From: Rhodopseudomonas julia
Lineage (GTDB): Bacteria > Pseudomonadota > Alphaproteobacteria > Rhizobiales > Afifellaceae
Assembly: GCF_030813515.1 (NCBI RefSeq)
Contig: NZ_JAUSUK010000001.1
Coordinates: 868,001-932,000, forward strand
Length of the DNA stretch: 64,000 nucleotides
Direction: 5' to 3'
Every line of letters starts with the position of its first letter. Position 1 is the first letter of the stretch. The position numbers were made by a program, and so were the translations under genes. A model generated the notes under the pieces. That model was given only the letters and a program-made list of their open reading frames with translations, had not been told where the DNA came from and made no database searches. Shown in pieces: positions 31,496-41,468 of this stretch.

Positions 31496-31571
<76 letters not shown>

Positions 31572-31760: not shown

Positions 31761-32114
31761 TCACCCGAAGGCTTTTTCGTATTCCTCCGGCTTGAAGCCG
31801 ACGAGAAGCGCGTCGGGCGCCTCCAGAACCGGGCGTTTGATCATCGAGGGCTGGTCCAGCATCAGCGCGATCGCTTTCTCGCGGTCGAGATCCGCCTTCT
31901 TCTCCTCCGGCAGCTTGCGAAACGTCGTGCCGGCGCGGTTCAGGAGCTTTTCCCAGCCGGCCCTATCCGCCCAGCCCTGAAGCCGCACCTCGTCGATGCC
32001 GGCCGTCTTGTAATCGTGGAAGGCGTAATCGACCTGACGTTCGTCGAGCCAGGCACGCGCCTTCTTCATCGTCGTGCAGTTCTTGATGCCGTAGATCGTG
32101 GTCAAAATCGTCAT
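31761..32114 (-). CDS. ArsC/Spx family reductase (YffB-like)
   Basis: A 117-aa thioredoxin-fold protein of the ArsC/Spx family. It starts T-I-Y-G-I-K-N-C-T-T-M-K-K-A-R-x-W-L, where the single N-terminal cysteine (N-C-T-T) replaces the C-x-x-C of Spx. The family blocks Y-x-F-H-D-Y-K-T-A-G-I and P-S-M-I-K-R-P-V-L follow, with the conserved Arg in the latter. ATG 32114 is chosen; the frame continues upstream without family similarity. Members are annotated as arsenate-reductase-like but most have no proven arsenate activity. Confidence 0.85.
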   Translation of the reverse strand: MTILTTIYGIKNCTTMKKARAWLDERQVDYAFHDYKTAGIDEVRLQGWADRAGWEKLLNRAGTTFRKLPEEKKADLDREKAIALMLDQPSMIKRPVLEAPDALLVGFKPEEYEKAFG

Positions 32115-32481
32115 CTCCGCTTGCCTGCGCCTTTGATAGCGTATGCCGCCGGCAACGGAAGCCCTCGCGCGGGCCGGCGATCGGGCCGCACAGCCACGCC
32201 CAGACGAGGTGTCGGACCACATTTCGGAGAAACTTCGCCTTCTCGCGAGTGTCTCCACCCGCAAAACGGCATATTCATTCGAATCGTTCAGATTCAATCC
32301 ATCCCGCTACATGTTCTACAACCCCTCGTATCTATTATTATTTCTAGAGAAATTGATTTTCTGATTCTGATCATCGCAAATCACCTTCTGCGCTCAAACG
32401 CCACAAGCAACTTTCCCCGAATTGTGTCGAAACGCGATTGCGCCAATACTCTCTACAGCGACACGGCAGAGGGAGGCCGGC
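32115..32481. promoter_or_regulatory. AT-rich leader/promoter region of the Cys-repeat peptide operon
   Basis: A 367-bp gap between the divergent ArsC-like gene and the first precursor peptide. From about 32260 to 32400 it is far richer in A and T than the rest of the window. It contains the palindrome ATTCGAAT (32277-32284), the inverted repeat GAATC-GTTCA-GATTC (32281-32295) and ATTTC-TAGA-GAAAT (32340-32353). A GGGAGG ribosome-binding site (32471-32476) precedes the GTG start. No open frame here looks coding. It is the likely promoter and operator region; the regulator is unknown. Confidence 0.5.
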
Positions 32482-32721
32482 GTGAAACTCAGCGAAAACG
32501 AGATCTACGAGCTCGTGCGCGCCAAGGCGACGCTCGATCTCATCCTCGGGGGCCACGATGTCGGCCCCGACGAGCCGGTCCGGGCGGACGATTCCAAGCG
32601 CTGTTACAATTGCAGCAGCGACTGCATCAGCTCCTGCCAGGGAAGTTGTTCGGGCGAATGCTCGAAATCTTGCGCCAGCACCTGTTCATCGGGCTGCGAT
32701 ACTGTCGTTTCGAACAAGTGA
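32482..32721 (+). CDS. Cys-rich CXXX-repeat RiPP precursor peptide 1
   Basis: A 79-aa peptide with GTG start behind GGGAGG. The N-terminal leader (residues 1-40) is helical and acidic (L-S-E-N-E-I-Y-E-L-V) and includes L-D-L-I-L-G-G at 18-24, a double-glycine-type cleavage motif. The core has nine Cys at 41, 44, 48, 52, 56, 60, 64, 68 and 72: one C-x2-C step and then seven exact C-x3-C steps, rich in Ser and Gly. No aspartate pattern as in CX3D ranthipeptides is seen. The gene lies 9 bp before the second precursor and upstream of a radical SAM maturase. The function (signal, antimicrobial or metal-binding) cannot be read from sequence. Confidence 0.85.
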   Translation: MKLSENEIYELVRAKATLDLILGGHDVGPDEPVRADDSKRCYNCSSDCISSCQGSCSGECSKSCASTCSSGCDTVVSNK

Positions 32722-32730
32722 GGCTCAACG

Positions 32731-32985
32731 ATGCACAAGACCATCGAAATCTCCGAGGCCGAGCTTGAGGAATTGCGGCAGGCGAGCCGTGTCCTGGAAA
32801 AAGTGCTCGGGGCGCGGATGGAAGCGCTGGTGGAAGCCTCCCACCCGGTGACGAAAGGATGCCAGGGCTGCAGCGGTGCCTGCGAAGGCACCTGCGCCGG
32901 CAGCTGCGCGGGAAGTTGCAAGGGCGGCTGCAAAGGTTCCTGCAACGCGATCTGCTCGACCGTGTGCACCATGCTCGGCTCGTGA
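32731..32985 (+). CDS. Cys-rich CXXX-repeat RiPP precursor peptide 2
   Basis: An 84-aa peptide with the same plan as precursor 1 but little residue identity. The acidic helical leader (I-S-E-A-E-L-E-E-L-R) contains V-L-G-A at 25-28 in the position of the other peptide's L-G-G. The core has ten Cys at 44, 47, 51, 55, 59, 63, 67, 71, 75 and 79: C-x2-C, then eight exact C-x3-C steps, mostly of the form C-x-G-x. The C-terminus is T-M-L-G-S. It ends 4 bp before the maturase start, so all three genes should be cotranscribed. The shared spacing makes chance or simple metallothionein-like composition unlikely. Confidence 0.85.
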   Translation: MHKTIEISEAELEELRQASRVLEKVLGARMEALVEASHPVTKGCQGCSGACEGTCAGSCAGSCKGGCKGSCNAICSTVCTMLGS

Positions 32986-32989
32986 CGCC

Positions 32990-34144
32990 ATGAAAGAAGC
33001 CGATCTCGACACGCGCACGCTCCAGCTCGTCACCACGGAGCGCTGCAATCTCAAATGCCGCTATTGCTTCGAGCAGGTGAAGCGCAACCGCGACATGCCG
33101 GTCGCGACGGCGCTGGCCAAGGTCGAAAAATATCTCACCCTCGATGATGGCTTCGACGGGCTCCTCATTGATTTCTTCGGCGGCGAGCCGCTTTTGCGCT
33201 TCGAGCTCATTCGCGAGGTCGTCGATTTCGTCCATTCCCGGCCCTGGCCGAAACGACATCACTTCAATGTCGGCACCAACCTGACCCTGCTCGACGAGGA
33301 CAAGAAGGCGTGGCTTGCGCATCATCGCGGCTGCCTCACCGTCAGCACCAGTCTCGACGGCACCAAGCGCGCGCATGATTTCAACCGCTGGGAATCCTAC
33401 GACGACGTGGTGCGCCACGTCCCCTTCTTGCGCGAGAACTGGCCGGACCAGCCGGTGAAGATGACGATCGGTGCCGACATGATCGAGGAGGTGGCGGCCG
33501 GCATCATCGAGATTCTCGAAATGGGGCTTTTCGTGGAGGCCAATGTCGTCTTCGAAAATGTGTGGGGCGAAGGCGCGGAGCGACAAGCGAAGCTTGCGAC
33601 CTTCTCCCACCAGCTCGACGAGCTCGTCGCCTATTTCACCCGCCATCCGGAGCTGTCGCCGCCGCGCTTCGTCGATCTCGGCATTGCCGCTCTTCCGGGT
33701 CTCGCCCCCGGTGAAAACCGCAAATGGTGCGGCACTGGGCGCTACATGGTCGCTGTCGATGTCGATGGCGTCGAATATCCCTGCCATCGCTTCACGCCTT
33801 ACGCCTCCAACCACGCGGCCGAGCGGCACGCGCGCGAAGGCTTCGGCGCGCCCGTCACCGATTGCAGCGCCTGCCCCGTGGTCGCCGTCTGTCCGACCTG
33901 CCATGCCTACAATTGGGAGGTGACCGGCGACGAGGACAAGCGCGTCGGCTATCACTGCGACTTCATCCGTCTCCAGTTTCACGCCACCGCGCGCCTGCAA
34001 TATAACCGCAACCGGGCCGCCATCCGGCAACTCGCAAAAGGCGAGATCGACGAGACGGTCGATCCTGCCGAACTCGCTGCCCTCGGCCGGCTCATCAAGG
34101 GGATCGCCCTCGTCCAGGAAAAGCTGCCGCTGCCGACGATCTGA
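32990..34144 (+). CDS. Radical SAM/SPASM peptide maturase
   Basis: A 384-aa enzyme. The radical SAM cluster motif C-N-L-K-C-R-Y-C is at Cys19, Cys23 and Cys26, followed by F-F-G-G-E-P-L-L (SAM-binding GGE motif) near residues 62-69. The C-terminal SPASM region has W-C-G-T-G-R-Y, G-V-E-Y-P-C, then C-S-A-C-P-V-V-A-V-C-P-T-C and a final Y-H-C, enough to ligate auxiliary FeS clusters. This is the layout of enzymes that form thioether or other links on Cys-rich precursors. The two CXXX-repeat peptides directly upstream are the expected substrates. The PqqD-like recognition domain common in such enzymes is not obvious in this sequence. The chemistry is inferred. Confidence 0.88.
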   Translation: MKEADLDTRTLQLVTTERCNLKCRYCFEQVKRNRDMPVATALAKVEKYLTLDDGFDGLLIDFFGGEPLLRFELIREVVDFVHSRPWPKRHHFNVGTNLTLLDEDKKAWLAHHRGCLTVSTSLDGTKRAHDFNRWESYDDVVRHVPFLRENWPDQPVKMTIGADMIEEVAAGIIEILEMGLFVEANVVFENVWGEGAERQAKLATFSHQLDELVAYFTRHPELSPPRFVDLGIAALPGLAPGENRKWCGTGRYMVAVDVDGVEYPCHRFTPYASNHAAERHAREGFGAPVTDCSACPVVAVCPTCHAYNWEVTGDEDKRVGYHCDFIRLQFHATARLQYNRNRAAIRQLAKGEIDETVDPAELAALGRLIKGIALVQEKLPLPTI

Positions 34145-34169
34145 TCTGGCGGAGCGGACGTCCCCCAGA

Positions 34170-35594
34170 TCAGGCGGAGCGCTTTGAGCCGCCCCGGCCC
34201 GGAACGGCTGTAAAAAGATCGGCGGAGAAAAGATCGCCGGCAAAGGGATCGTCTGCCGGAGGCCTCGGTTTGCAGCCGCGCACGGGCTTGTCCGTGGACG
34301 CGGCTTGCCTCTTTGGCGTCTTTGGCGTCTTGAGCTTCTCGTGCTGCTGCGTCGCCGCCTGCACCTCGCTTTCCCAGCCGAAGATGCTGCGCCCGCCATA
34401 GGCGACCGCATGGCGCATCTCTTCGCCGGTATATTCGGCAAGCGTCGGGCCGTCCGCCACGGTTTCGAGCCGCCTTGCCTCGCGGTCGAGGCGCTTGATC
34501 GCATCGAGCTTGTCGTCCTGGCCGAGCTTTGCCCGATCGACGGCCCGCCGCATGACGCGGATCGTCTCGTCATAGACTTTTGTGGGCACCGGAAAGGGAT
34601 GCCGGTCCTTGCCGCCATGGGCGAGCGAGAAGCGGGCCGGGTCGGTGAAGCGGCAGGGCGCGCCATGCATCACTTCCGCGACCATGGCGAGCGAGCGGAC
34701 CGTGCGGGCACCGACGCCCGGCGTCAGGAGCAGCTCGGAAAAATCCTGCGGCCCGCATTCGGCGGCGGCGGCGAGCGCCCCATGCAGGCGCCGGCTCACC
34801 ACGTCCTTGGGGCGCACATCGTGGTGCGCGGGCATCGTCAGATGTGGCAGAAGCGGCGCCTCTTCCTCCGGCGCGGGCTCGGGCCTGCCGTCGAGGGCGG
34901 CAAATTCGCGAACGATGCCGGTGACGCCGACATCGCGCAGAAGATCGATCTGGCGCTCGCGCGAGGCGGCCGCGCGATGGTCGGCGAGATTGACGATTCT
35001 GCCCTGATTGCGGCCTTCGATCGCCGCATGCGGCGCATCGACGAAACTTGTCAGATCTTCCGACAGCCAGTGATAGCGGCGGGCAAGCCGCGTCTCGCCG
35101 TTCATCCCCTGCTGGATCACCACCCATTTGCCATCATCGGTGACGATGAAACCGTGCAGATAGAGGTCGAATCCGTCCTGCAGCGCGGCGCTGTCGACCT
35201 TGGCGACGAGGCGGCTCGCGCGGGCAAGCGCCGTCCCGTCGAAACCGACACGTCCGCCGATCGAAACGAGTTCGTCGGGGGTCTTGCGCGAATGCCGGCC
35301 GCGCCCGCCGCAGACATGCAGCCCGAGCTCGCCCGAGAGCGGCGCGAGACCGCGCTTCAAGGCACCGATCACGGAGGTGGTGATGCCGGAAGAATGCCAG
35401 TCCATGCCCATGACGGCGCCGAAGGACTGAAACCAGAAGGGATGGGAAAGGCGGCGCAGGAATTCGTCGCGGCCGTAATGGTGGACGATCGCCTCCGTCA
35501 TCACCGTGCCGAGCGCCGTCATCCTTTGCCCGAGCCAGGCCGGGACACGGCCATTGTGAAGCGGCAGATCGGCACTGCCGGCGCGTCGGACCAT
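34170..35594 (-). CDS. DUF763 domain-containing protein
   Basis: A 474-aa protein matching DUF763. It starts R-R-A-G-S-A-D-L-P-L-H-N-G-R-V-P-x-W-L, the family signature, followed by G-x-D-W-H-S-S-G-I-T-T-S, L-H-V-C-G-G-R-G, and a central helix-hairpin-helix-like L-L-L-T-P-G-V-G-A-R-T-V-R-S-L-A. The C-terminal 60 residues are a low-complexity Lys/Pro/Asp-rich tail. ATG 35594 is preferred over the TTG one codon upstream. The HhH suggests nucleic-acid binding but no function is established. It is convergent with the peptide maturase gene, with a 25-bp gap. Confidence 0.88.
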   Translation of the reverse strand: MVRRAGSADLPLHNGRVPAWLGQRMTALGTVMTEAIVHHYGRDEFLRRLSHPFWFQSFGAVMGMDWHSSGITTSVIGALKRGLAPLSGELGLHVCGGRGRHSRKTPDELVSIGGRVGFDGTALARASRLVAKVDSAALQDGFDLYLHGFIVTDDGKWVVIQQGMNGETRLARRYHWLSEDLTSFVDAPHAAIEGRNQGRIVNLADHRAAASRERQIDLLRDVGVTGIVREFAALDGRPEPAPEEEAPLLPHLTMPAHHDVRPKDVVSRRLHGALAAAAECGPQDFSELLLTPGVGARTVRSLAMVAEVMHGAPCRFTDPARFSLAHGGKDRHPFPVPTKVYDETIRVMRRAVDRAKLGQDDKLDAIKRLDREARRLETVADGPTLAEYTGEEMRHAVAYGGRSIFGWESEVQAATQQHEKLKTPKTPKRQAASTDKPVRGCKPRPPADDPFAGDLFSADLFTAVPGRGGSKRSA

Positions 35595-35681
35595 CAAAGG
35601 CTCCGTCAGGAACGAAAGAGGAACTTATCTAGCATGTGGGCCGCGGCGTGCCTACCGCCTCATCCCGCAACTGGAACGCGC

Positions 35682-37779: not shown

Positions 37780-39162
37780 TCATCCGCCCGCCGTCTCGGC
37801 CTCGCACAATTGCGCCTGAAGCCATTCCAACAGGTTCTGCGTCAGCGTCACCTGCCAGAAGCAGCCGGCGAGCGTCAGGCGGAGCCGGCTCTTGTCCGCC
37901 TCGACCAGTCCCGCCCGTTGCCATTGCGCGAAGAGGGGCGCGAGCACGACATCGCCTTGAAGCCCGGCACGGCGTTCAAGCTGCGCCGACAACCAGGCGA
38001 CGTTGAGCCGCCCGAGCTCCATCTCGCTCTTGATCAGACTGAAGAGGTCGTGGTTCTCCGGCTGCCGCGTCAGCCGTCCGACGACGCAATGGCCCGCGGA
38101 GATCGCCTCCTGATAGGCGCGCAGATCATCGTCGATGCCATAGGAATAACCGCCGAGAGAGCCTCCGGCCCCGGCGCCGAACGCCAGGCATTCCGCTCCC
38201 GATTTGACGGCGTGGTTGTAGATGTTGCGCTCGCGTTCGCCCTGCCGCCAATGCGTCGTGGAGATCGAATGCCAGCCCGCCCGCTCGAAAACCTCGCTCG
38301 CTTCGGCATAAAAGAGGCCGAACTCGGCGCGGTCCATCGGCGGAAATTTGCCCTTGTCGATCGCGGCCCGCAGCGGCGCATGTGGAATGAGCTTCAACGA
38401 ATAGACATCCGCCCCGTCGAGACCGATGGCGATCGCCGTCTCCACGTCGTTGCGAAAAGCCTCGAGCGTCTGGCCGGGCAGGCCGTAAATGAGATCGACG
38501 ACGATCGCACCGCCATCGGCTTTCACCAGGCTGTCGAGAAACGCGATCAGCTCCTCGCGCGAGGCACGCCGGCCGAGCGAGCGGCGAAGGCGCGTGTCGA
38601 AGGTCTGGACGCCCAGAGAGACACGGTTGGCGCCGGCCTCGAAAATCGCCGCGATCTTGTCAGCATCGAAGCTGCGAGGCCGCCCCTCCACCGTGATCTC
38701 GCAATCGGGCGACAACGGCAGATATTCCCGCACCGCGGCGATCAGCCGGGAAAGATCGGGGGCTGAGAGCACCGTCGGCGTGCCGCCGCCGAAATAGACG
38801 GCGTCGAGCACGCCTTCCGCCTGATAGGGCAGATCGGCATCGCGCTTCAAATGCGCAATCAGCGCGTCGACATAAGCGGGGCCGGCCTCCGGTCTCCAGG
38901 CGTTCTGATAGAAGCCGCAGAACAGGCAATGGTTCTCGCAAAACGGTACGTGCAGATAGGCGACGCCGTTGCGGGCGCGCGGCCGGCGGGTGAGCTCCTG
39001 CCACGTGGCCTCCCGGCTCTCCTCCGGCACCATCTGCGCGCCGAAGGAGGGATGCACCACACGCTTCGTGCCAAAGGCGTTGCGCAGCGGCGTGCCGTCT
39101 TCGGCGGCGAAGAATTCCTGCATGCGCCGCGCAGCCGGCGGCGTGATCTGAGCGCTCTCCAT
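37780..39162 (-). CDS. hutW: Heme utilization radical SAM protein ChuW/HutW
   Basis: A 460-aa HemN-like radical SAM protein. The cluster motif C-E-N-H-C-L-F-C has Cys75, Cys79 and Cys82, followed by Y-F-G-G-G-T-P-T and N-R-V-S-L-G-V-Q-T-F-D. ChuW/HutW enzymes open heme anaerobically to release iron in a radical methyltransferase reaction. The heme receptor next to it and the Hmu transporter support that assignment over coproporphyrinogen dehydrogenase or HemW. It lies downstream of the receptor on the same strand, with a strong hairpin between them. Confidence 0.85.
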   Translation of the reverse strand: MESAQITPPAARRMQEFFAAEDGTPLRNAFGTKRVVHPSFGAQMVPEESREATWQELTRRPRARNGVAYLHVPFCENHCLFCGFYQNAWRPEAGPAYVDALIAHLKRDADLPYQAEGVLDAVYFGGGTPTVLSAPDLSRLIAAVREYLPLSPDCEITVEGRPRSFDADKIAAIFEAGANRVSLGVQTFDTRLRRSLGRRASREELIAFLDSLVKADGGAIVVDLIYGLPGQTLEAFRNDVETAIAIGLDGADVYSLKLIPHAPLRAAIDKGKFPPMDRAEFGLFYAEASEVFERAGWHSISTTHWRQGERERNIYNHAVKSGAECLAFGAGAGGSLGGYSYGIDDDLRAYQEAISAGHCVVGRLTRQPENHDLFSLIKSEMELGRLNVAWLSAQLERRAGLQGDVVLAPLFAQWQRAGLVEADKSRLRLTLAGCFWQVTLTQNLLEWLQAQLCEAETAGG

Positions 39163-39275: not shown

Positions 39276-41468
39276 TCAGCCGCCGAAACGCAATGTGGCG
39301 CCGAGCTTCACACTCAAACCGGGCTCGTAGACGACCGACGTCGTGGTCGCGTTGAGCGGGTTGGCGTAGCGCACATCGAAAAGGTTCTCCGCGCGCAGGC
39401 TGGCGCGGAAATTCTCGTTCACGTCGTAGCGCGCGAAGGCGTTCACGAGCGTGTAATCCTTGGCGTATTCCGCCCCGTCCGGGGCGATGTTGTGCTCCAC
39501 CTCGCCACCGAAGCTGAGGCGCTGTTCGAGGAGGCGGAAGCCGAGCGAGCCGCCGAGCTGCGACGCCGGAATGGAGACGATATCCTCCTTGACCCCATCC
39601 GCCTTGCGCCAGCCGTCGATGATGGAGGCCGTCAGGCCGCCGAAAATCCAGCCGGCATCGTAGGCCGCTTCAAGCTCGAAGCCGTGCAGCCGCGCCTCGG
39701 CGAAGTTCTGGTACTGGAAGCAGATCGGCGCATAGGTCGGGCTGCCCAACAAATCCGGCCGCAACGGACAGCCGCTCGTCGGATCGAAGGCCGACAGCGT
39801 CTGCCCGTCGATGAAATCGTCGACGTCGTTGTTGAAATAGGCGGCCTTCAGGCGCAGCCGATCGTCGGCGACAAAGAGCGAATCGCGCCGATAGTTGACG
39901 CCGAATTCCCAGGTCTTGCCGGTCTCCGGGCGCAGATCGGCATTGGGCAGGAAGGGAAAGGCGACGCCGGAGGGATGCAGCCCACTGATCAGGGTCTCCG
40001 TCGTCGTCGGCGAGCGGTAGCCTTCCGCGTAGGTGCCGTAGACCTGCAGCCCGCCGAGGACCGGCCCTTCGAAGGGCGAGACGCCAACGGTCAGGCGCGG
40101 CGACAGCCGGTCGCCGTCGCTGTCGACATCCGTGCCGTCGAGTTCATAGCTGTCATAACGCAGGGCGCCGATGACCTCGAACCAGTGCCAGGTGAGCTTG
40201 TCCTGGACATAGGCACCCCACACCTTGCGGTCGCCCGACGGCGTATAGACATCGCTGCCGCCGAGCGGGCTCGATGTCGTCACCTCGTCTTTCAGCCAGT
40301 CGCCGCCATAGGTGAGCTCGTGCGCGAGCGCACCGGTGTCGAAGCGCGACGTGTTCCACAGATCGATCCCGTAGGTGTCGAGATCGTAGGTGGTCTTGGA
40401 GCCCGCCGGAACGTTGATCACCTCGCCCGTCACGGGATCGAACTGGCGCACATCCGTCAGATATTCCTGGTCCAGCTTCGCCTGGTTCCAGGAGCCGTTG
40501 ATGTGGAGGTCGATCCAGGGATTGTCCGGGTCGTCGAGCGCGTAGCGCGCCGTCAGCGTGTTCTGCGTCAGATCGAGATCGGAGGCGCCGGATCGTTCCT
40601 CCCAGCCGTCGTCGGTGCCGATCCAGCCGAGACGCAATTCGCTGTAATCGTTCGGGCGGATGCTCGTCTTCAGCATGCCGCTCAAGACGTCGAAGCCGGT
40701 GCCCGACACCTCGTCGCCATGGCCGTCGTCATATTCGGAATAGTCGCGCCAGACGAGATTGCCGAGAACGTCGATATTGTCGTTGATGCGGGCGGCCCCC
40801 GTCCCGCTCATCGTCCAGCCATTGCCGTTCGTCTCGTACTGGCCGGTGAAGGAAATGGCGTATCGCTCCCATTCCTTCAGGAAATCGCGCGCATCCTTGG
40901 TCTCGAACATGACGACGCCGCCGATCGCGCCGGAGCCATAGGTGTTGGCGACGGGGCCGCGGACGACATCGACCTGCTTCACCAGCATCGGGTCGATCCA
41001 AAACGTGCTCTGCGTGCCGTGTCCTGAGCGCTGGAAATCCTGGCGCGCCCCATCGACGATGACGGCGACGCGGCCGAAATCCTGAAGACCGCGAATGTTC
41101 ACCGAAGAGCTCAAGCGGCTCGAATCGGCCTGGACGGCAACACCCGGCACGCCTTGCAGCATTTCGAGCGGCGTCGTCGCCATCTTGCGATCGAGCTCTT
41201 CCTGGCCGAGCCGGCTCACCGATGCCATCGTTTCGATGGCGCTTTCGCCGGTGCGGCTGATGACGGTGATTTCGTCGAGCGTCGTCACCTTCGGCTGGGC
41301 CTCCTGGGAAGCCTCGGAGGCGTCACGCTCTGTGACCGCCGCCTCCTGCGCAAAGCCCGGAGCGGACAGCGCCAGGGACGCGGCACTGGCCAGCAATGCG
41401 CCATGCCATTTCGGCCGATATCCCCAGCCACGCCTTCCGCCCTCATCCTCACGCCTACCCCAGCCCAT
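39276..41468 (-). CDS. TonB-dependent heme/hemoglobin receptor
   Basis: A 730-aa outer-membrane receptor. After a basic N-terminus and a Sec signal ending near A-P-G-F-A-Q comes a TonB-box-like stretch (L-D-E-I-T-V-I), the plug domain (L-E-M-L-Q-G-V-P-G-V, N-I-R-G-L-Q-D-F-G-R-V, R-G-P-V-A-N-T-Y-G-S-G-A-I-G-G) and a 22-strand-type barrel ending in F. The plug matches heme receptors such as HmuR/BhuA. ATG 41468 has AGAGGAG upstream. The iron box lies 42 bp upstream, shared with the divergent hmuTUV genes. Confidence 0.9.
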   Translation of the reverse strand: MGWGRREDEGGRRGWGYRPKWHGALLASAASLALSAPGFAQEAAVTERDASEASQEAQPKVTTLDEITVISRTGESAIETMASVSRLGQEELDRKMATTPLEMLQGVPGVAVQADSSRLSSSVNIRGLQDFGRVAVIVDGARQDFQRSGHGTQSTFWIDPMLVKQVDVVRGPVANTYGSGAIGGVVMFETKDARDFLKEWERYAISFTGQYETNGNGWTMSGTGAARINDNIDVLGNLVWRDYSEYDDGHGDEVSGTGFDVLSGMLKTSIRPNDYSELRLGWIGTDDGWEERSGASDLDLTQNTLTARYALDDPDNPWIDLHINGSWNQAKLDQEYLTDVRQFDPVTGEVINVPAGSKTTYDLDTYGIDLWNTSRFDTGALAHELTYGGDWLKDEVTTSSPLGGSDVYTPSGDRKVWGAYVQDKLTWHWFEVIGALRYDSYELDGTDVDSDGDRLSPRLTVGVSPFEGPVLGGLQVYGTYAEGYRSPTTTETLISGLHPSGVAFPFLPNADLRPETGKTWEFGVNYRRDSLFVADDRLRLKAAYFNNDVDDFIDGQTLSAFDPTSGCPLRPDLLGSPTYAPICFQYQNFAEARLHGFELEAAYDAGWIFGGLTASIIDGWRKADGVKEDIVSIPASQLGGSLGFRLLEQRLSFGGEVEHNIAPDGAEYAKDYTLVNAFARYDVNENFRASLRAENLFDVRYANPLNATTTSVVYEPGLSVKLGATLRFGG

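Follow-up and report, generated by a model that had tools for sequence, protein, structure and literature searches.

A candidate two-precursor RiPP cassette with a single radical SAM/SPASM maturase in Rhodopseudomonas julia

In Rhodopseudomonas julia, two small genes encoding peptides with periodic cysteines lie directly ahead of a radical SAM/SPASM gene, and the question raised by this locus is whether the three form a RiPP system and, if so, how such a system relates to those already known. We analyzed the locus within the 64-kb stretch of DNA that surrounds it (the window). ORF calls placed the two peptide genes, pepA and pepB, and the maturase gene head to tail at 32482-34144. The gene positions, the peptide lengths of 79 and 84 aa, the cysteines at 41-72 and 44-79, and the seven and eight C-x3 steps given in an earlier note were reproduced exactly by ORF calls and Cys counts. 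The maturase was also as described there, with C-x3-C-x2-C and SPASM cysteines and a start 4 bp after pepB. The features of the locus are as follows.

31764-32297, minus-strand ORF: ArsC-family gene, neighbor
32164..34212, plus strand: cassette; this stretch of the window is replaced by ∼70 bp in the congener G002
32190..32481, plus strand: AT-rich upstream region, presumed promoter region; GC 0.497 vs. 0.647 for the window; 54.5% identical to the sister species
32482..32721, plus strand: pepA, putative precursor 1; 79 aa, GTG start; leader approximately residues 1-40, core Cys 41-72
32731..32985, plus strand: pepB, putative precursor 2 and paralogue of pepA; 84 aa, ATG start; leader approximately residues 1-43, core Cys 44-79
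32990..34144, plus strand: radical SAM/SPASM maturase; 384 aa, ATG start, 4 bp after pepB
34173-35597, minus strand: DUF763 gene, neighbor

The three cassette genes overlap with no gene-scoring ORF on either strand. Within the 2.05-kb unit, we found no exporter, peptidase, or second enzyme and no immunity or regulator gene. A sigma-70–like site was not found in the upstream region, terminator-like sites numbered two against 2.0 expected, and an Rfam search of the region matched only the tRNA. The other neighbors are genes for an aminoacyl-tRNA editing domain protein and a glutamine synthetase. A tRNA-Phe (gaa) at 31496-31571 neighbors the ArsC-family gene; it is ∼0.6 kb from the cassette, on the upstream side, and not directly at the cassette border. 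Elsewhere in the window, a second radical SAM gene stands beside a TonB-dependent receptor gene (37780-39162 and 39276-41468, minus strand); it scored 526.3 bits with ChuW/HutW, above the cut-off of 400, and the pair is probably a locus for haem uptake and anaerobic haem degradation.

Comparison within the genus defined the unit of inheritance. pepA and the maturase gene occur together in the same two of five genus genomes, and neither occurs in the other three. The window and the congener G002 match as far as 32163 and once more beyond 34213, and in G002 only 70 bp separate the two matching parts; from this empty site it follows that the unit is a 2.05-kb cassette made up of the AT-rich upstream region and the three genes. 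In G003 and G004, the DUF763 neighbor was not found, and these genomes therefore give no test of the site.

The cysteines of both peptides follow a strict register, at residues 41, 44, 48, 52, 56, 60, 64, 68, and 72 in PepA (one x2 step, then seven x3 steps) and at residues 44, 47, 51, 55, 59, 63, 67, 71, 75, and 79 in PepB (one x2 step, then eight). This spacing is not due to chance, since none of 100,000 whole-peptide shuffles and none of 100,000 core-only shuffles reached the observed run for either peptide. Of all window ORFs with 30 aa or more, only the two that hold these peptides contain at least four CxxxC steps. All 19 core cysteines are kept in the sister species G001, where 14 of the 61 other core residues have changed. 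The residue at +4 from each Cys of the run is the next Cys, with no CX3D/E motif, and acidic residues, counted from the first core Cys to the end, number three for nine Cys in PepA and one for ten in PepB. Over 80 repeat units from 16 typed peptides, position +2 is mostly Gly (53%) or Ser (17%), and position +3 is Ser (33%), Gly (19%), Thr (12%), Asp (9%), or Asn (9%).

The earlier note had credited the two peptides with little residue identity, a claim that fails because their leaders are related: the alignment of the PepA and PepB leaders (score 45) was equaled in none of 2,000 shuffles, and a search with PepA retrieved PepB (35% identity, E 1.0e-7). Judged by their sequences, the leaders are homologous and the genes paralogous. 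A structure model of PepB had a mean pLDDT of 58.5 with the core below 60, and only the leader helix (residues 9-35) was usable. A leader motif common to all phyla was considered and rejected; in 15 leader pairs tested with 2,000 shuffles each, only PepA/PepB and the Methanosarcina leader with Rhodobium peptide B were significant, and with the other 13 nonsignificant we claim no universal leader. Curated target models matched the peptides weakly. PepA scored 20.1 bits with TIGR04117 (cut-off 50) and 13.2 bits with TIGR04114 (cut-off 20), reaching neither; PepB scored 27.1 bits with TIGR04117, again below the cut-off, and 23.1 bits with TIGR04114, above it. Weak TIGR04117 matches are unspecific genome-wide, being given by 7 of 14 control genomes.

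The maturase carries the radical SAM motif C19-x3-C23-x2-C26 (CX3CX2C in all 30 compared rows) and all seven SPASM cysteines (C247, C265, C292-x2-C295-x5-C301-x2-C304, and C323). It matched Pfam Radical_SAM with 44.2 bits, and its cluster-binding cysteines were invariant in alignments of 20 and 24 rows. The structure model (pLDDT 90.3, pTM 0.89) begins at the radical SAM core, and the enzyme is therefore predicted to have no N-terminal recognition domain. The closest solved folds were 5why and 5wgg (TM by query length 0.62-0.67), followed by anSME and then ChlB, which was solved with the leader of its precursor. The best PDB sequence match was 5wgg (E 9e-15), the enzyme named CteB in PMC10352776. 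TIGR04115 was the best curated family (153.6 bits, cut-off 350), about equaled by PapB (NF047865; 135.9 bits, cut-off 340), with the SCIFF maturase model at 74.6 bits (cut-off 425); the window maturase reached the cut-off of none of the curated maturase families listed.

We then looked at how far this enzyme and its peptides travel together. The maturase was found in 2 of 11 genomes of the taxonomic family (the window's own and G001, of the same genus), in 3 of 397 of the order (the third being Rhodobium orientis, G069, at 45% identity), and only in the window's own genome among 385 of the class sample (E limit 1e-40) and 398 of the phylum sample (E limit 1e-50). The earlier note had placed CXXX-repeat targets mainly outside alphaproteobacteria, and rarity in the class is supported by these counts and by TIGR04115-like matches in just 7 of 289 class genomes, none above the cut-off. 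The other alphaproteobacterial matches were rejected as instances of the same system, as five of the six scored above the QhpD cut-off and one was nearest to HxsB.

A wider scan took one genome per species, and the best 80 of 337 relatives were analyzed, divided into 13 closest loci (at least 170 tblastn bits) and 67 remoter ones. A Cys-repeat ORF was defined as one of <150 aa, within 1 kb, with C-x2-C-x3-C or four Cys at a four-residue pitch. Under this definition, which like the 170-bit line was fixed after the loci had been inspected, a same-strand Cys-repeat ORF accompanied the maturase at 12 of the 13 closest loci, and an opposite-strand ORF accompanied it at none. Absence of such peptides was the refuting condition named in the earlier note, and within the best 80 relatives, the outcome favored linkage. 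At the remoter loci, 5 of 67 had such an ORF, all on the same strand. The 13 closest loci come from Rhodobium, a Methanosarcina MAG contig, Clostridia, Chlorobium, Eggerthellaceae, Verrucomicrobia, Muribaculaceae, and Bacillota. Six-frame inspection of the Chlorobium ferrooxidans locus (L009, 35% identity) found no convincing Cys-repeat peptide, nor was one found at four Bacteroidota clade rows (L019a/b and L021a/b).

One maturase with two precursors, as the earlier note had envisaged, was seen in all three alphaproteobacterial loci found: the window, G001, and Rhodobium orientis (L006). Two convincing peptides were also present at a Verrucomicrobia locus (L011), and elsewhere there was usually one. 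The Rhodobium orientis locus has other neighbors (a succinyl-CoA ligase-type gene and a histidine kinase gene). In the tree, the Methanosarcina maturase pairs with that of Rhodobium (98/97), and the peptide leader at the Methanosarcina locus aligns with that of Rhodobium peptide B (0 of 2,000 shuffles as good); because this locus is a 5.5-kb MAG contig, transfer of the system to an archaeon is only suggested. Carriage by phages was rejected, with 22-41% identity in the best segment at 17 viral loci, as was carriage by plasmids, with a single record (L117) of 29.1% identity and no Cys-repeat ORF in its 5,978-bp stretch under the pattern used.

Several arrangements among the relatives were recorded alongside the scan. 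Tandem maturase pairs of the window's clade occur in Bacteroidota (L019:6885-9161 and L021:6165-9134), and a Muribaculaceae MAG has two tandem clade maturases with an 84-aa Cys-repeat peptide between them (L016:7989-11184). A Thermoplasmata archaeon has a 187-aa ORF (L038:8596-9159) with a dense Cys-rich tail, and a remote relative of the radical SAM type lies ∼3 kb from this ORF. The 17 viral loci are contigs (L100-L116) that encode remote SPASM-like relatives.

These results support the candidate RiPP system, in which a single radical SAM/SPASM maturase accompanies Cys-repeat precursors. The leader–core precursor linked to a modifying enzyme by which RiPPs are recognized was found here as homologous leaders, linkage, and co-absence. 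A minimal two-precursor RiPP cassette with one maturase, which probably cross-links the two peptides, is in our judgment the likely explanation because of the linkage at 12 of 13 loci, co-presence in two of five genus genomes, the empty site, the two-precursor loci, the Cys register, the family placement, and the closest folds. Counted against it are the cassette's lack of both exporter and peptidase genes, which a secreted RiPP would usually have; the absence of a convincing peptide at L009, the four Bacteroidota clade rows, and the plasmid relative L117; and the score of the window maturase below every curated maturase cut-off listed.

One alternative is ordinary membership of the locus in TIGR04115/TIGR04117, the set of CXXX-repeat systems that NCBI has already curated. 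The SPASM motif opens with CX9-15GX4C. Its third block is canonically CX2CX5CX3C (PMC5715301). CX2CX5CX2C replaces this block in all 18 rows of the clade that holds the window maturase (support 100/98) and in both genuine TIGR04115 rows. Three QhpD rows have CX3C, but the spacing is not exclusive, because an HxsB-like row also carries CX2C. The clade adjoins the two TIGR04115 proteins, the only such members in the tree, with a branch support of 94/91 that is under the starred level, in a tree of 30 rows of our own choosing that has five open branches among its 27 inner ones and several long outer rows. This placement, the SPASM spacing, and the best family score favor ordinary membership. However, every clade member scores less than half the TIGR04115 cut-off, whereas the genuine members reach 383 bits (L022, from Aminicenantes, fused to TIGR04119) and 411 bits (L023, from Desulfosporosinus, with a Cys-repeat peptide of 246 aa next to it). 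When the 16 other clade rows besides the near-identical G001 were scanned, none reached the TIGR04115 or PapB cut-off (PapB scores 102.6 to 150.3 bits), and 13 of the 16 scored PapB above, or without, TIGR04115. Moreover, TIGR04119 gave no match at E <= 0.001 in the window's genome and was above the cut-off in none of six relatives' genomes, three of which had weak matches of 34 to 38 bits. Ordinary membership is accordingly unlikely, and the maturase clade would be a distinct, little described, and so far uncurated branch beside the curated CXXX-repeat family. The 246-aa Desulfosporosinus ORF (L023:9169-9909), with its long Cys-repeat stretch, had no NCBIfam match at E <= 1e-10. In the open-licence literature, we found nothing that joins “CXXX repeat” with “radical SAM” or the TIGR accessions and no CXXX-system product in print.

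A second alternative, following the two-component product raised in the earlier note, is a two-component secreted peptide (bacteriocin or signal) made by one maturing enzyme, with unlinked genes responsible for leader removal and export. Between the window and G001, identity is high in the maturase (95.3%) and in the DUF763 (93.6%) and ArsC (89.9%) genes; it is 54.5% in the upstream region, 76.7% in pepA, and 76.1% in pepB. Synonymous divergence (dS) is 0.78 and 0.80 in the peptides vs. 0.16 in the maturase, as is often so where peptides meet rivals or partners, and two paralogous precursors are conserved in the three alphaproteobacterial loci, both as a two-component product would have it. 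However, immunity, export, protease, and regulator genes are missing from the 2.05-kb unit, and two convincing peptides occur at only 2 of the 13 close loci (L006 and L011), which leaves this reading improbable. Positive selection behind the divergent peptide block was rejected, as dN/dS is <0.3 in both peptides, and allele replacement or relaxed exchange is therefore preferred. Identity rises from 22/30 to 29/30 at ∼32910, inside the pepB core, and patches of 93-97% identity (32490-32549 and 32610-32639) lie within the divergent block. The simplest reading from this one species pair would be allele replacement of the promoter–peptide block; single-breakpoint recombination is not proven because identity within the block is patchy.

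Least probable, to the point of being very unlikely, is a metal-binding (metallothionein- or copper-storage–like) peptide pair whose free thiols matter and whose radical SAM protein makes a minor change or acts elsewhere: nine and ten Cys in Gly/Ser-rich cores, an intracellular role suited to a cassette with no exporter or peptidase, and acidic residues too few for the Cys–Asp chemistry described in PMC9413430 at most Cys would fit it, but in different phyla the peptides occur together with maturases of this clade (at 12 of the 13 closest loci), they are co-absent with the maturase in the genus, and NCBI curates TIGR04117 and TIGR04114 as radical SAM targets or Cys-rich repeats.

Returning to the minimal RiPP cassette, we infer its chemistry and function as follows. 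The two paralogous precursors, in each of which a helical leader precedes a C-x2-C-(x3-C)n core, would be made with the maturase from one transcript. The maturase would bind the leader without a separate recognition protein and, with SAM, would abstract a hydrogen atom from a core residue, and the sulfur of a neighboring Cys would be joined to that carbon, the step being repeated along the four-residue register. One enzyme would serve both peptides, the products would contain ranthipeptide- or sactipeptide-like thioethers, and any export or proteolysis would fall to genes elsewhere. With almost no Asp or Glu in the core, most bonds would have to end on small residues at +2/+3 (Gly, Ser, Thr, Asn), unlike those of PapB. 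By analogy, such thioethers are chemically plausible, since Thr serves as the acceptor for CteB and Asn serves as the acceptor for a streptococcal enzyme (both as described in PMC11002830).

A further proposal is tentative and rather doubtful: that the clade makes a continuous thioether (or other Cys-derived) ladder with a link every four residues on Gly/Ser-rich repeats that lack acidic acceptors, a pattern unlike that of PapB, CteB, or QhpD; that the product is a rod-like, all-Cys-linked intracellular peptide of which the precursors are the two halves; and that related strains exchange the precursor alleles as one block but keep the maturase. If the reading of the locus as a minimal RiPP cassette is true, there would be a distinct uncurated branch of CXXX-repeat maturases needing only one enzyme and peptides, with a two-precursor model in a readily grown relative, Rhodobium orientis (cultured strain DSM 11290). 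The chemical question would then be where the Cys goes without an acidic acceptor, and the precursor block, diverging much faster than the maturase, would offer a natural case of substrate tolerance.

Among SPASM enzymes, PapB, CteB, and QhpD are established as forming thioethers in the accounts of PMC9413430 and PMC11002830. The systems of TIGR04115 with TIGR04114/TIGR04117 targets resemble the cassette in having a radical SAM/SPASM maturase beside CXXX-repeat peptides, in the SPASM CX2CX5CX2C, and in a probable sister position in the tree; they differ in family scores (153.6 vs. 350 bits for the window maturase, and 20 and 27 vs. 50 bits for its targets with TIGR04117), in the TIGR04119 partner missing from the window's genome, and in target length (79 and 84 aa vs. 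246 aa beside L023). QhpD, the quinohemoprotein amine dehydrogenase maturase, is likewise an alphaproteobacterial SPASM enzyme with a weak TIGR04115 match. However, the five found score 564-594 bits with their own family (cut-off 453), and the three examined have SPASM CX3C and lie on the other side of the tree. PapB, with its target PapA (freyrasin, a ranthipeptide), is also a single SPASM enzyme acting on repeated four-residue Cys spacing; as described in PMC9413430, it links Cys to Asp or Glu and also accepts other spacings. PapA there has Asp/Glu four residues after each Cys, whereas in the window peptides that position is the next Cys, and the Asp/Glu residues in their cores are too few for every Cys to form a PapB-type link. 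CteB with SCIFF (thermocellin) provides the closest solved fold and best PDB sequence match and, in PMC11002830, a thioether to a nonacidic residue, Thr; its target layout is different, and in the window enzyme the radical SAM core stands at the very start. Thuricin CD (TrnC/TrnD), a two-component sactibiotic, shares with the cassette two precursors made together (PMC12093266); it has two radical SAM enzymes, whereas the window cassette has one.
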